64,000 nucleotides of DNA, taken from positions 1,798,001 through 1,862,000 of the forward strand of contig NC_017033.1 in the NCBI RefSeq assembly GCF_000242255.2, in the 5' to 3' direction. Positions 4,919 to 11,677 of the stretch are shown here, one piece after another (position 1 is the first letter of the stretch; each line of letters begins with the position of its first letter). The position numbers and the translations under genes were made by a program. Source of the DNA: Frateuria aurantia DSM 6220 (GTDB lineage: Bacteria > Pseudomonadota > Gammaproteobacteria > Xanthomonadales > Rhodanobacteraceae). The notes under the pieces are model-generated. The model saw only the letters and a program-made list of their open reading frames with translations. It did not search any database and was not told where the DNA came from.

Positions 4919-7346
4919 CATGCACAGCAGAGAAGCTGACTTTCCGGTTGAAGGCATGACCTGCGCGGCCTGCGCCGCCAGTGTCGAGCAGGTGCTCAAT
5001 CGCCTGCCGGGTGTGAAGGCCCAGGTCAATCTGGCGGCCGAGCATGCGCATCTCAGCTACGATCCGCGGCAAGTCCGGCCGATGCAGTGGCTGGAAAGCG
5101 TACGGCGCGCCGGTTTCGATGTGCCCCGTCGCCAGCTGGTGCTGGGCGTCGAGGGCATGACCTGCAGCGCTTGCAGTGGTGCGGTGGAAAAGGTCTTGCA
5201 GCAATTGCCCGAGGTCAAGGCCAGTGTGAATCTGGCAGCCGGGCAGGTCAGCATCGATTACCAGCCGGCCTTGGTCAGCGAGGCGGAGCTGGAGGATGGC
5301 ATCCGTCGCAGCGGATATATCCCGTTCCAGCAGGTACGGCTGAAAGGCCAGGCACTGGAGGCCAGCGAGGCGGCCGAGCTCAAGGCCTGGCGGCGCTCCC
5401 GGATACAGGCCGTGGCAGCCAGTCTGCTGGCCTTGCCCCTGCTGCTTCCGATGCTGTTGATGTGGGTCCCTGGCGACATGCCTGGCTGGCTTCATGACGG
5501 GCTGCCTCGTGGCTGGCAGCTGGCGCTGGCCACGCCGATCCAGTGCTGGGCCGCGGCCGGCTTCTATCGCGCCGCATGGCGGGCCGTGCGGGGCCGTCAT
5601 GCCAATATGGATGTGCTGGTGGTGCTGGGCACCAGTGCGGCTTATCTCTACAGCCTTGTGCTGACCTTGGGGCGATGGCCGGGTGAAGTCTATTTCGACA
5701 GCAGCGCGGTGATCATCAGTCTGATCCTGTGGGGGCGGCTGATGGAAGGGCGTGCCCGCCATCAGACCACGGCGGCGGTGCGTGCGCTGATGCAATTGCA
5801 GCCGGAGACCGCCCGGGTCGAGCGTGATGGCGAATTGATCGAGCTGGATGTGGGCCGGATCGTGGCTGGCGATGTCGTCCAGGTGCCGGCGGGCGAGCAG
5901 GTGCCGGTGGATGGCCGGGTAATCGCGGGCGAATCCAGCATCGACGTGTCGATGCTGTCCGGCGAAGCCATGCCGGTGGCCAAGTCGGCGGGCGCGATGG
6001 TCCATGCGGCCAGCGTGAATGGATCGGGCTGGTTGCGGGTCGAGGTCACCGGGGTGGGGGGCGATACGCTGCTGGCGAGGATGATCCAGCGGGTCGAGCA
6101 GGCTCAGGGCTCCAAGGCCCCGGTGCAGCGGCTGGCCGACCGGGTCGCGGCCGTGTTCGTGCCGGCCGTTCTCGGGCTGGCCTTGCTGACTCTGGTGGTG
6201 ACCTGGATCTGGAGCGGGCATTTCTCGCTCGCGATGGTCCGCGCTGTGGCGGTCCTTGTCATTGCCTGCCCGTGTTCGCTGGGCCTGGCCACACCGACTG
6301 CCATCATGGTCGGGGCCGGCGTGGCGGCGCGCTCGGGCATCATGATCCGCGATGCCGAGGTGCTGGAGCGTCTGGGCAAGGTCAAGGTGGTGGTTTTCGA
6401 CAAGACCGGGACGCTGACGCGCGGCCGGCCGGCGATCCGGTCCGTGAGGCTTGCGCCGGGTCGCCGGCGTGAACAGGTGCTGCAATGGGCGGCTTCGCTG
6501 GAGCGTGGCTCGGCGCATCCGCTGGCGCGGGCTTTTTTGGACGCGGCCGAGGTCGAGGGCATCGACTTGCTGCCGCTGGAGGCCTTGCGCACCGAGGCTG
6601 GCAAGGGGCTGCAGGCCAGCATGCAGGCTGGTCGGATGCGGCTTGGCCAACTGGAATGGGTCTTGGACGGGCGGCCGGCGCCGGACTGGCTGGACGTTTC
6701 GGGTGATGGCAAGTCGCTGGCCCAGGTGGCTATGGCGGTGGACGGCCGTCTGGTCGCCTGCTTCGAGATTTCGGATGCCTTGCGTGAGGATGCCTTGCAG
6801 GCGGTATCGGCCTTGCGCGACATGGGTCTGCATACGGTCATGCTGACGGGGGATCAGCCGCAGGTGGCGGCGGTCATCGCCCGTGCCACGGGCATTGATG
6901 ACTATCGGGCCGGGGTCCTGCCCGAAGGCAAGGCCGATAGGGTGCATGAATTGCAGCAATCCGCCGCCGGTCCGGTGGCGATGGTGGGCGATGGCATCAA
7001 TGACGGTCCGGCGCTGGCGACCGCTGATATCGGCATCGGCATGGGCGGTGGCTCGATGGTGGCGATCGAGACTGCCGGTGTGGTGCTGATGCAGGATCGA
7101 CTGATGGCGGTAGTGCAGGCGATAGCGTTGTCCCACGCGACATTGCGGACCATCCGCCAGAATCTGTGCTTTGCATTTGGCTACAACCTTGTGGGGATTC
7201 CGCTGGCCGCGTTGGGCTGGCTGAATCCGATGCTGGCCGGCGCGATGATGGCCCTGAGTTCGGTCTCGGTGGTCGGCAATTCACTGCGACTGGGGCGATG
7301 GGCACATCCCGGGATCGATGCCCCGGTTGCGCAATCTGGACACTGA
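4908..7346 (+). CDS. Cu(I)-exporting P1B-type ATPase
   Basis: About 812 residues. Two heavy-metal-associated domains (CxxC at about residues 19-22 and 86-89, both GMTCxxC) precede eight membrane segments. The channel motif CPC is at 454-456, the phosphorylated Asp in DKTGTLT at about 498, and GDGINDGPA marks the hinge of the ATP-binding domain. The family exports Cu(I) from the cytoplasm and is also called copA/copF; I leave the symbol blank to avoid confusion with the oxidase. A GTG at 4908 has CGGAG seven bases upstream; ATG 4920 is the alternative. cueR overlaps by a few codons, so they form one operon. Confidence 0.94.
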   Translation: MSPDMHSREADFPVEGMTCAACAASVEQVLNRLPGVKAQVNLAAEHAHLSYDPRQVRPMQWLESVRRAGFDVPRRQLVLGVEGMTCSACSGAVEKVLQQLPEVKASVNLAAGQVSIDYQPALVSEAELEDGIRRSGYIPFQQVRLKGQALEASEAAELKAWRRSRIQAVAASLLALPLLLPMLLMWVPGDMPGWLHDGLPRGWQLALATPIQCWAAAGFYRAAWRAVRGRHANMDVLVVLGTSAAYLYSLVLTLGRWPGEVYFDSSAVIISLILWGRLMEGRARHQTTAAVRALMQLQPETARVERDGELIELDVGRIVAGDVVQVPAGEQVPVDGRVIAGESSIDVSMLSGEAMPVAKSAGAMVHAASVNGSGWLRVEVTGVGGDTLLARMIQRVEQAQGSKAPVQRLADRVAAVFVPAVLGLALLTLVVTWIWSGHFSLAMVRAVAVLVIACPCSLGLATPTAIMVGAGVAARSGIMIRDAEVLERLGKVKVVVFDKTGTLTRGRPAIRSVRLAPGRRREQVLQWAASLERGSAHPLARAFLDAAEVEGIDLLPLEALRTEAGKGLQASMQAGRMRLGQLEWVLDGRPAPDWLDVSGDGKSLAQVAMAVDGRLVACFEISDALREDALQAVSALRDMGLHTVMLTGDQPQVAAVIARATGIDDYRAGVLPEGKADRVHELQQSAAGPVAMVGDGINDGPALATADIGIGMGGGSMVAIETAGVVLMQDRLMAVVQAIALSHATLRTIRQNLCFAFGYNLVGIPLAALGWLNPMLAGAMMALSSVSVVGNSLRLGRWAHPGIDAPVAQSGH

Positions 7347-7361
7347 AACAGGAGATGCACG

Positions 7362-7574
7362 GTGACGCATATTGAACTGAATGTAGATGGCATGACCTGT
7401 GGCGGCTGCTCCGGCCGCTTGAATCGCGTGCTGCGAGCACGCGAAGGCATCGCCGCTGCCGAGGCCGACCATGCCGCGCACCGGGTGGTGGTGGACTATG
7501 ATCCGGCCCATATCGACGAGGCGCAGATCTGTCAGGCCATCACCGATGCCGGTTTCGAGGTCAGGTCGGGCTGA
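7362..7574 (+). CDS. copZ: CopZ-like copper chaperone
   Basis: 70 residues forming a single heavy-metal-associated domain with GMTCGGC near residues 10-16. It would carry Cu(I) in the cytoplasm to CueR or to the HMA domains of the ATPase encoded 15 bases upstream. The start is GTG at 7362 with AGGAG about eight bases upstream. A typical CopZ/Atx1 length and the third gene of the cueR unit. Confidence 0.92.
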   Translation: MTHIELNVDGMTCGGCSGRLNRVLRAREGIAAAEADHAAHRVVVDYDPAHIDEAQICQAITDAGFEVRSG

Positions 7575-7602
7575 GGGGTTGCTTGAGGGACGCCAGGGGG
7601 GC

Positions 7603-7631
7603 TTGCGTCGGACTCGGGTTTATGGTTTAGT
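7603..7631 (+). promoter_or_regulatory. Predicted promoter of the asnB leader
   Basis: TTGCGT (7603-7608) and TTTAGT (7626-7631) are 17 bases apart. Transcription would start at about 7638, which is the first ATG of the leader peptide, so the leader may be translated from a leaderless message. No Shine-Dalgarno sequence lies in front of that ATG. Both boxes are imperfect. Confidence 0.45.
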
Positions 7632-7637
7632 CCGAGC

Positions 7638-7763
7638 ATGATGATTCTTTCGACTCCGCTGAAATGCACGACGATCCCTTCCGGGTCGGCCGTCTTGGCG
7701 GCCGTCGACAATAACGCGAACAATAATCTTCAGGCTCTCTCGGGCAGGTGGATCTTCGCGTAA
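7638..7763 (+). CDS. Asn-rich leader peptide (41 aa) of a putative asnB attenuator
   Basis: ATG ATG at 7638-7643 opens a 41-residue frame ending in TAA at 7761-7763. Its middle reads DNNANNNLQ: the codons at 7710-7727 are AAT AAC GCG AAC AAT AAT, five Asn in six. The frame ends 22 bases before a 13-pair terminator hairpin and 100 bases before asnB. This is the layout of amino-acid-operon leader peptides (his, thr, leu, phe, trp), where a ribosome stalled at codons of the scarce amino acid prevents termination. I infer that low charged tRNA-Asn raises asnB expression. The peptide has no other recognisable feature. Confidence 0.8.
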   Translation: MMILSTPLKCTTIPSGSAVLAAVDNNANNNLQALSGRWIFA

Positions 7764-7785
7764 TCGAATCAACGATCACGAGATC

Positions 7786-7815
7786 ACAAAGGCCCGCTGA
7801 AGAGCGGGCCTTTGT
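7786..7815 (+). terminator. Attenuator terminator upstream of asnB
   Basis: ACAAAGGCCCGCT (7786-7798) pairs perfectly with AGCGGGCCTTTGT (7803-7815), a 13-pair stem with loop GAAG, followed by CGTTTC. It sits between the Asn-rich leader peptide and asnB. Five bases of its left arm, GCCCG (7792-7796), are complementary to CGGGC at 7741-7745, and AGAG (7801-7804) to CTCT (7737-7740), a candidate antiterminator. A smaller hairpin can form at about 7751-7785 just upstream. Confidence 0.8.
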
Positions 7816-7863
7816 CGTTTCAGACGCTGCAAAACCGACTGACAACAACCCAAGGGGCTTGGC

Positions 7864-9534
7864 ATGTGTTCGATTTTTGGCATGTTTGATCTGCATCCCG
7901 GTGATGATCTGCTGGCGCTGCGCCAGCAGGCGCTGGCCTTGTCGCAGCGGCAGCGGCATCGCGGCCCGGACTGGAGTGGCGTGTATGTGGCGCCCGAGGT
8001 GATTCTGGTCCATGAGCGTTTGGCGATTGTCGATCCGGCCAGCGGTTCGCAGCCGCTGCGGTCGCGGGACGGGCGGCTGGCACTGGCGGTGAATGGCGAA
8101 ATCTACAACCATCGCGAACTGCGGGCAGCCAGCGACTACGACTTCACCACCGGCTCGGACTGCGAAGTCATCAATGCCTTGTATCTGGCCGGGGATGCCG
8201 ATCTTGCCAACAAGCTCAACGGCATTTTCGCCTTTGCCTTGTGGGATGGCGAGTCCCGCCGCTATATGATTGCGCGCGATCCGATCGGGGTCTGCCCCTT
8301 GTACTGGGGGCATGATGCGCAAGGTCGCCTGCTGGTGGCCTCGGAGCTGAAGTCGCTGTCCGGCATCTGTGCCGACGTGGCCGAATTTCCGGCCGGTCAT
8401 ATCTATGACAGCGCCAGCGGTGAGCTGCGGCAATATTATCAGCGACCGTGGCGCGACTATGCCGTCGTCCAGGGCAGGCCGGCCGACAGGGCCGCCCTGC
8501 GGCAGGCGTTCGAGCAGGCCGTGCACCGGCAGTTGATGACGGATGTCCCCTATGGGGTATTGCTCTCGGGCGGGCTGGACTCCTCGCTGGTGGCTGCCTG
8601 TGCCGCCCGTTTCGCCCGCGAGCGGATCGAGGATGATGATCGCAGCGAAGCCTGGTGGCCGCGGCTGCACTCGTTTGCCATCGGCCTGGAAGGCTCGCCG
8701 GATCTGGCGGCGGCCGAACGCGCGGCACAGGCGCTGGGCACGGTGCATCACGGTTTTGTCTACAGTTTCGAAGAAGGTCTGGATGCCTTGCCCGAGGTCA
8801 TCCGGCATATCGAGACCTATGATGTCACCACCATCCGCGCATCCACCCCGATGTATCTGCTGGCCAGACGGATCAAGGCGATGGGGGTGAAGATGGTGCT
8901 GTCCGGCGAGGGCTCGGACGAAATCTTCGGCGGCTATCTGTATTTCCACAAGGCGCCCTCGGCCGAGGCCTTCCACGAGGAGCTTGTGCGCAAACTCGAT
9001 GCCTTGCACAGCTATGACTGCCTGCGTGCCAACAAGTCGATGATGGCCTGGGGCGTCGAGCCACGGGTGCCGTTCCTGGATCGCGAGTTCATGGATGTCG
9101 CCATGGGCTTTGACGCGGCCGACAAGATGGCCGGCGGCGGCCGGATGGAAAAGGCGGTGCTGCGCGAGGCCTTCGAAGGGGCCTTGCCGGACGAGATTCT
9201 CTGGCGTCAGAAGGAGCAGTTCAGTGACGGGGTGGGCTACGGCTGGATCGATGGCCTGAAAGCCCATGCCGAAGCCCAGGTCAGCGATCGGGAATTCGCG
9301 GCGGCGGCGGCACGTTTCCCGCACAACCCGCCGGCTACCAAGGAGGCTTATTACTACCGGGCCGTGTTCGAGCAGTTCTATCCCGGTCCGGCGGCCGCCG
9401 CGACCGTGCCGGGCGGCAAATCCATCGCCTGTTCCTCGCCGGCCGCCATCGCCTGGGATCCGGCCTTTGCCACAGCCGCCGATCCATCGGGGCGGGCGGT
9501 GCAGGGGGTGCATCTGCAGGCGAGCCCTGCCTGA
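7864..9534 (+). CDS. asnB: Asparagine synthetase B, glutamine-hydrolysing
   Basis: 556 residues, like E. coli AsnB (554). It makes asparagine from aspartate, ATP and glutamine in the cytoplasm. Residues 1-200 are the class II glutamine amidotransferase domain starting MCSIFG with the nucleophile Cys2 and the RGPD and NGEIYNH motifs; the synthetase domain contains the pyrophosphate loop LLSGGLDSS near residue 235 and LSGEGSDEIFGGY. Start: AAGGGG six bases before the ATG. The upstream leader peptide and terminator suggest attenuation by asparaginyl-tRNA supply. A C-terminal tail rich in Ala/Pro is slightly longer than usual. Confidence 0.96.
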   Translation: MCSIFGMFDLHPGDDLLALRQQALALSQRQRHRGPDWSGVYVAPEVILVHERLAIVDPASGSQPLRSRDGRLALAVNGEIYNHRELRAASDYDFTTGSDCEVINALYLAGDADLANKLNGIFAFALWDGESRRYMIARDPIGVCPLYWGHDAQGRLLVASELKSLSGICADVAEFPAGHIYDSASGELRQYYQRPWRDYAVVQGRPADRAALRQAFEQAVHRQLMTDVPYGVLLSGGLDSSLVAACAARFARERIEDDDRSEAWWPRLHSFAIGLEGSPDLAAAERAAQALGTVHHGFVYSFEEGLDALPEVIRHIETYDVTTIRASTPMYLLARRIKAMGVKMVLSGEGSDEIFGGYLYFHKAPSAEAFHEELVRKLDALHSYDCLRANKSMMAWGVEPRVPFLDREFMDVAMGFDAADKMAGGGRMEKAVLREAFEGALPDEILWRQKEQFSDGVGYGWIDGLKAHAEAQVSDREFAAAAARFPHNPPATKEAYYYRAVFEQFYPGPAAAATVPGGKSIACSSPAAIAWDPAFATAADPSGRAVQGVHLQASPA

Positions 9535-10518: not shown

Positions 10519-10551
10519 AAGCCGTTTGAATCCACCGACCGCATGGCAGTT

Positions 10552-11677
10552 ATGATCGAGACCAATCCCATCCAGGCGCAGATTTCCGACCTCATCGAGC
10601 GCGTAGCCTTGCTTAGGGGGTATCTTTGACTACCCTTCCAAGAGCGAGCGTCTGGAAGAAGTAAATCGCGAACTGGAAAGCCCCAGCGTCTGGGATGACC
10701 CCGCGCGTGCCCAGGAACTGGGCCGCGAGCGTGCCCGGCTGGCGACCATCGTCAACGGCATTGACGAGCTGGGCTCGGGGCTGGACGATGCCGGCGAACT
10801 GCTGGAGATGGCGGCCGCCGACGGTGACGAAGACACCGTCAACGCCATCGTCGGCGATGTCGCCGCACTGGAGGCCCGCGTCGGCAAGCTGGAATTCCAG
10901 CGCATGTTCTCCGGCAAGATGGATGCCTGCAACGCGTTTATCGACATCCAGGCCGGTGCCGGTGGCACCGAGGCCCAGGACTGGGCCGAAATGCTGCTGC
11001 GCATGTATCTGCGCTGGTGCGAATCCCGCGGCTGGAACACCGAGCTGCTGGAAGTCAGCGGCGGCGACGTGGCCGGCATCAAGTCGGCGACCTTCCGGGT
11101 CGAAGGCGATTATGCCTATGGCTGGCTGAAGACCGAGATCGGCGTGCACCGGCTGGTCCGCAAGAGCCCGTTCGACTCCGACAATCGCCGCCACACCAGT
11201 TTCACCTCGGTGTTCGTGTCGCCGGAAGTCGATGACGACATCGAAATCGACATCAATCCGGCCGACCTGCGTACCGATGTGTACCGCTCCAGTGGGGCCG
11301 GCGGTCAGCACGTCAACAAGACCGAATCGGCGGTGCGTATCACCCACGTGCCGACCGGCGTGGTCGCGGCGTGCCAGACCGAGCGCAGCCAGCATGCCAA
11401 CCGCGACCGCGCGATGAAGATGCTGAAAGCCAAGTTGTACGAGCTGGAAGTGCAGAAGCGCAATGCCGAAAAGGATGCGCTGGAAGCCTCCAAGTCCGAT
11501 ATCGGCTGGGGTAGCCAGATCCGCAACTACGTGCTGGACCAGAGCCGGATCAAGGATCTGCGCACAGGCATCGAACGCACCGATACCCAGAAAGTGCTGG
11601 ATGGCGACCTCGACGAATTCGTCGAGGCCAGCCTGAAATCGGGCCTGGATGCTGGCGCAAAGCGCCTTGACGCCTGA
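10552..11677 (+). CDS. prfB: Peptide chain release factor 2 with programmed +1 frameshift
   Basis: 374 residues after frameshifting. Translation starts at ATG 10552 (or 10543, MAVM), reads 25 codons to CTT, meets TGA at 10627-10629 and shifts +1 to continue at GAC 10628. RF2 recognises UGA and UAA; when it is scarce the slow TGA allows the shift, giving autoregulation. The product has the stop-recognition tripeptide SPF (RKSPFDS) and the peptidyl-hydrolysis GGQ motif ([11 protein letters not shown]). lysS follows, as in E. coli. Reading the gene without the shift would give only a 25-residue peptide. Confidence 0.97.
10615..10630 (+). promoter_or_regulatory. prfB programmed frameshift signal
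   Basis: The sequence AGGGGGTATCTTTGAC is the canonical RF2 recoding site: an internal Shine-Dalgarno AGGGGG, three bases, then the slippery CTT followed by TGA and C. It is the same 16-base string as known in E. coli. Confidence 0.95.

Follow-up and report, generated by a model that had tools for sequence, protein, structure and literature searches.

What is the function of a short open reading frame (ORF) with a run of asparagine (Asn) codons that ends just before a hairpin, upstream of a gene for asparagine synthesis? The question is raised by the asnB locus of Frateuria aurantia DSM 6220, which lies on contig NC_017033.1 in the 64,000-nucleotide (nt) stretch of DNA analysed here, referred to as the window. 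Leader-peptide attenuators govern the his, trp, thr, leu, ilv and phe operons of proteobacteria, and asparagine genes in Gram-positive bacteria are regulated by T-boxes, in which the RNA binds transfer RNA (tRNA) directly and senses the charging of tRNA-Asn. We are highly confident that the element in front of asnB is a ribosome-mediated transcription attenuator that is specific for asparagine and controls this gene. The ORF, its Asn run, the hairpin, their conservation, an alternative pairing in relatives and promoter-like boxes next to the start codon can all be read from the sequences themselves.

The ORF encodes a peptide of 41 amino acids, MMILSTPLKCTTIPSGSAVLAAVDNNANNNLQALSGRWIFA, and its stop codon is followed after 22 bases by the hairpin and after 100 bases by the asnB start codon (Table 1). 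The hairpin arms (7786-7798 and 7803-7815) form a perfect helix of -24.8 kcal/mol. An initial annotation of this DNA had described the frame, the Asn codons, both spacings and the 13-pair hairpin, and its coordinates proved exact; its naming of the downstream gene as asparagine synthetase was likewise borne out, the product scoring 850.9 bits against NF006949 (cut-off 499) and thus belonging to the asparagine synthase B equivalogs. A count of AAYAAYNNNAAYAAYAAY over the 3,603,458-base genome gives a single occurrence, with none on the other strand and none for the pattern read backwards, and the covariance model R1 finds a single full-length place in the genome (61.2 bits), the next match reaching 28.2 bits over the hairpin part only. 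Because the Asn pattern is unique in the genome and the arrangement is conserved in relatives, the combination of leader and hairpin goes beyond chance. The genome also encodes the asparaginyl-tRNA synthetase AsnS (621.7 bits); it holds one asnB match at E<=1e-100 and no match to AsnA, so that the asnB of the window appears to be its only asparagine synthase of this type.

Table 1. Features of the asnB leader region, in positions of the window
Feature	Position	Strand	Description and basis
-35-like box	7603..7608	+	TTGCGT; TTGC 35 nt before leader ATG; comparison of leaders
Extended -10-like box	7623..7631	+	TG-G-TTTAGT; 17-nt spacer to -35 box; 6 nt before ATG (7638)
Leader peptide ORF	7638..7763	+	41 codons, TAA at 7761-7763; probable RNA 5' end at or beside its ATG
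Regulatory Asn codons	7710..7727	+	AAT AAC GCG AAC AAT AAT; sequence and pattern count in genome
Proposed 1:2 (pause) structure	7714..7761	+	Around the Asn codons; base helix 7714-7720 with 7755-7761; minimum-energy fold
Proposed 2:3 antiterminator	7741..7796	+	7741-7745 with 7792-7796, 7749-7755 with 7781-7788; fold of 7731-7798, mainly relatives
3:4 terminator hairpin	7786..7815	+	13 pairs, loop of 4, then imperfect U-tract; folding and covariation in relatives
asnB	7864..9534	+	Glutamine-hydrolysing asparagine synthase B, 556 amino acids; NF006949

The comparison covered the DNA upstream of asnB at 162 loci, some of which represent the same genome twice. A set of 61 genomes contributed all of its 41 matching relatives; the other loci came from 80 named records out of 554 candidates, from 40 places chosen by hand, and hence not at random, among the 214 of 299 genomes of the order with a match, and from one further place. 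A leader was defined as an ORF with at least three Asn in eight codons that ends before a hairpin upstream of asnB. Such a leader with its hairpin precedes asnB at 143 of the 162 loci, and at 143 of the 145 testable ones, where asnB is at least 73% identical and enough upstream DNA is available; the 143 loci comprise 131 distinct upstream sequences. The distance from stop codon to hairpin is 19-34 nt (median 24), and the hairpins range from -15.4 to -33.0 kcal/mol. The 19 loci lacking a leader consist of 14 with an asnB 60-70% identical, three with short upstream DNA (L072, L093 and L119, whose 60-250 nt place them outside the testable set) and two Rhodococcus records (L107, L117). In the latter asnB is 79-80% identical to that of the window, which looks like gene transfer, and L117 carries a six-codon ORF, MRGNNE, before a hairpin of -32.4 kcal/mol, too little to be called a leader.

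The leader-bearing loci span three families of one gammaproteobacterial order, here f1, f2 and f3; by their records, f1 includes Dyella, Rhodanobacter, Frateuria, Fulvimonas and Dokdonella, and f2 is, at a guess, Xanthomonadaceae. In their best stretch of eight codons, the 130 distinct leaders contain three Asn in 5 cases, four in 14, five in 36, six in 63 and seven in 12, and hence at least four in 125. The N-terminus and length of the peptides vary, and the Asn run, the frame, the C-terminal end and the spacing between stop codon and hairpin are conserved. This is the pattern of constant elements among varying flanks that the initial annotation had proposed to look for in related bacteria, and the close asnB loci display it. 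The Asn codons of the leaders are AAC in 440 and AAT in 388 cases, against 570 and 86 in the asnB genes (Fisher p 3e-46, overstated since the sequences are related). The AAT share is accordingly 47% in the distinct leaders and 13% in asnB. The Asn residue is therefore kept while the third base varies, with AAT favoured, perhaps owing to slower decoding or to avoidance of structure. A class-wide search found asnB in 4 of 274 genomes, and the one outside the order (62% identical) has no leader.

The start of the leader carries a second signature, which the initial annotation had missed. Alignment of the 130 distinct leaders on their ATG reveals two common elements: CTTGC, some 35 nt upstream, and a T....T hexamer that ends 6-7 nt short of the start codon. 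TTGC lies at -38 to -32 in 121 of 130 leaders; among asnB starts it does so in 3 of 130, and among other ATGs in 24 of 752. This comparison is partly circular in that the starts came from a fitted matrix; the spacer is 17 nt in 99 of the 121. Since the leader starts had been picked in this way, a plain promoter rule was also applied. An in-frame ATG or GTG satisfied it in 107 of 130 leaders; of the other in-frame codons 27 of 5954 did so, and none of the 139 out-of-frame ATGs or of the 130 asnB starts. At the nine loci without TTGC, a TTG box can be seen by eye before another in-frame ATG or GTG. A scan of 7300-7900 for sigma-70 consensus promoters found none, so the assignment rests on comparison between leaders. 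Shine-Dalgarno-like tetramers precede only 11 of 130 leader starts, as against 125 of 130 asnB starts. Because the promoter-like boxes adjoin the leader start and Shine-Dalgarno sequences are nearly absent, the leader mRNA is probably leaderless, with a predicted RNA start at or beside its own AUG.

In an alignment of 44 leaders chosen by hand from 95 distinct ones (A1), the terminator helix is paired in 97.3% of cells, and 6 of its 11 pairs show double changes, in 58 such cells. The hairpin is present in all 143 leaders, each of which has 4-10 T within 12 bases around the 3' end of the hairpin. The RNA for the end of the leader (GGGYGGGCC) is complementary to the 5' arm of the terminator (GGCCCGCY), and in f2, where the arm reads CCCGCATC, the leader carries GATGCGGG instead. 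This antiterminator, not mentioned in the initial annotation, is paired in 90.9% of the cells of A1, against at most 53.7% when the pairing is slid. In 87 of 106 cases its duplex is more stable than mononucleotide shuffles at p<=0.05; against synonymous shuffles, which hold the peptide fixed, the same level is reached in 45 of 95 by duplex and, with a mean z of -2.22, in 66 of 95 by folding. The window's own fold of 7731-7798 has -22.0 kcal/mol, with z -2.63 against dinucleotide shuffles. Judged by comparison and folding, the relatives possess an antiterminator that sequesters the 5' arm of the terminator and that a ribosome at the stop codon would cover.

Ribosome positions were modelled by folding only the RNA downstream of the ribosome and upstream of the terminator 3' arm, as an equilibrium and not a kinetic calculation. 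Averaged over 130 leaders, 0.62 of the 5' arm pairs with upstream RNA when the ribosome is stalled on Asn, 0.15 when it has reached the stop codon and 0.61 when there is no ribosome; the window gives 0.53, 0.00 and 0.52. Stalled exceeds stop in 130 of 130 leaders, partly a trivial result because more upstream RNA is free in the stalled state.

From these elements we infer translation of the leader, ribosome stalling, termination and a response to Asn-tRNA. RNA polymerase would start at the leader AUG or directly beside it, and the first ribosome would load on the 5' end of the probably leaderless RNA. When Asn-tRNA is plentiful, this ribosome would reach the stop codon and cover the RNA for the C-terminus of the leader, which would permit the downstream hairpin to form and transcription to stop before asnB. 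When Asn-tRNA is scarce, the ribosome would stall on the Asn codons and leave the RNA for the end of the leader free; this RNA would then pair with the terminator 5' arm, and the polymerase would continue into asnB. Most likely, the enzyme would be made only when asparagine is short. The initial annotation had read the locus as ribosome-mediated attenuation, a reading now strengthened by the conservation in relatives, the identity of asnB and the antiterminator.

Several results weigh against this mechanism. The leader is missing at the 14 loci with more distant asnB (L032-L041, L157-L159, L179), and three f1 genomes carry a divergent asnB (64-66%) without one. Covariation of the antiterminator is thin in A1, with two pairs showing double changes, which is not above shuffles (273/500), and the antiterminator of the window is no better than its synonymous shuffles (z 0.0). 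In the ribosome-state folds, synonymous shuffles give 0.53 and the real leaders 0.66; 113 of 130 lie above their shuffle mean, but only 48 of 130 at p<=0.05, and the window falls below its own shuffles (0.53 real, 0.64 shuffled). The 1:2 hairpin is weak by the same standard (28 of 95 at p<=0.05, mean z -1.24; z -0.79 in the window). Finally, the fold without a ribosome hides the terminator 5' arm as much as the stalled one does; termination therefore seems to need translation.

The window's own U-tract is also poor (UUUGUCGUUUC), and the hairpin at 7786-7815 was absent from the output of a simple terminator scan over 7300-7900. The weak U-tract would fit control of translation or Rho-dependent release in place of an intrinsic terminator, as would the Shine-Dalgarno-like tetramer of asnB, which could be masked. 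We consider such a mode of action very unlikely in view of the compensatory changes that conserve the hairpin and the T residues around its 3' end in every leader. Another reading, in which the leader is the gene of a conserved small protein with a function of its own, or of a modified peptide that an AsnB-like enzyme helps to make, is highly improbable. In its favour, the Asn run and the C-terminus (GWAGV, WRARA, RARPMR..) are conserved, and AsnB has distant relatives among the peptide-cyclising enzymes. Against it, the peptides differ widely in length and N-terminus, the antiterminator strand overlaps the codons of the conserved C-terminus, and the downstream enzyme is an asparagine synthase B equivalog. 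The chance that the hairpin merely terminates the copper genes that end just upstream on the same strand (copA and a small metal-binding ORF at 7362-7574), whose transcripts it would stop too, with an accidental Asn run, is close to negligible, given that the same leader and hairpin, 19-34 nt apart, precede asnB in genera and families with other upstream DNA.

Some observations at single loci may be recorded here. At L042 and in genome G027 (C44:53521-55168), asnB is broken into two parts that lie in different frames, one of them containing a TGA, yet the Asn leader and hairpin are intact. At L018, as at L014 and L155, a repeated element of the type ATGGCCATGGATGGCCGGTAT..GCCGGAAACGCAGGAGC lies between terminator and asnB, and several copies at L018 place the leader 440 nt from the gene. 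A class-wide model search with strict filters (274 genomes) returned one match outside the order, which covered model positions 54-115 only, had no recognised asnB nearby and was rejected as terminator-like. Elsewhere in the window, at 10543-11677, the ORF of release factor 2 (prfB) lacks its N-terminal part and follows a 28-codon ORF that ends in ..LLRGYL and a stop codon; the arrangement resembles the usual programmed frameshift.

How does the Asn attenuator relate to known systems? T-boxes and the Asn leader would both sense tRNA-Asn charging, but direct tRNA binding belongs to the T-box only. Among Rfam families (Trp, Thr, Phe, His and Leu leaders and T-box), none reached its gathering score in the window or eight relatives, the best scores in the window being Phe_leader with 22.5 of 55 bits and Trp_leader with 19.3 of 41. 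Leaderless poly-cysteine short ORFs of mycobacteria are reportedly the subject of Canestrari 2020, a reference of PMC13236596; by title they resemble the Asn leader in being leaderless short ORFs in which a run of one codon controls downstream genes, whereas theirs is cysteine, in actinobacteria. The general mechanism of leader-peptide attenuation is outlined in PMC1183508. Like the six classical attenuators, the Asn leader combines a run of cognate codons in a short ORF, an intrinsic terminator, a competing antiterminator and a cognate biosynthetic gene downstream; unlike them, it is specific for Asn and directed at asnB, has its antiterminator strand inside the leader's own C-terminal codons, probably starts leaderless, and has a 1:2 hairpin that is weak or dispensable in folds. 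The closest parallel to the predicted start is trpL of Sinorhizobium meliloti, a leaderless attenuator in which the AUG of the leader ORF forms the 5' end of the mRNA (PMC10117765, PMC7298713); that leader senses Trp in an alphaproteobacterium and has 14 amino acids, whereas the Asn leaders are gammaproteobacterial and typically 20-45 amino acids long. The initial annotation knew of no Asn leader peptide of this sort, and we too found no description in the open-access literature, a coverage that mostly leaves out subscription papers. The terms 'asparagin' and 'asnB' are absent from the main text of an actinobacterial survey (PMC1262725) and from that of a premature-terminator survey (PMC2965389), the latter as far as its excerpts extend. 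The mechanism is thus familiar, whereas its use for asparagine and for asnB is new, as is probably a leaderless start in this lineage.

Altogether, leader-peptide attenuation would gain asparagine as one more amino acid that it senses, and soil bacteria of one order would possess a direct Asn-tRNA switch for asnB. We put forward tentatively, at a little under even chances, the fuller picture of an Asn attenuator in three families whose mRNA starts at its own AUG, in which termination needs the first ribosome to reach the stop codon, read-through is the untranslated default, and a small leaderless RNA possibly acts in trans. If this is true, the terminated RNA would be a small leaderless mRNA that could act in trans in the manner reported for rnTrpL and peTrpL of S. 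meliloti. The approximately 130 natural variants constitute a data set in which stalling position, antiterminator strength and the probably leaderless start can be related to attenuation.
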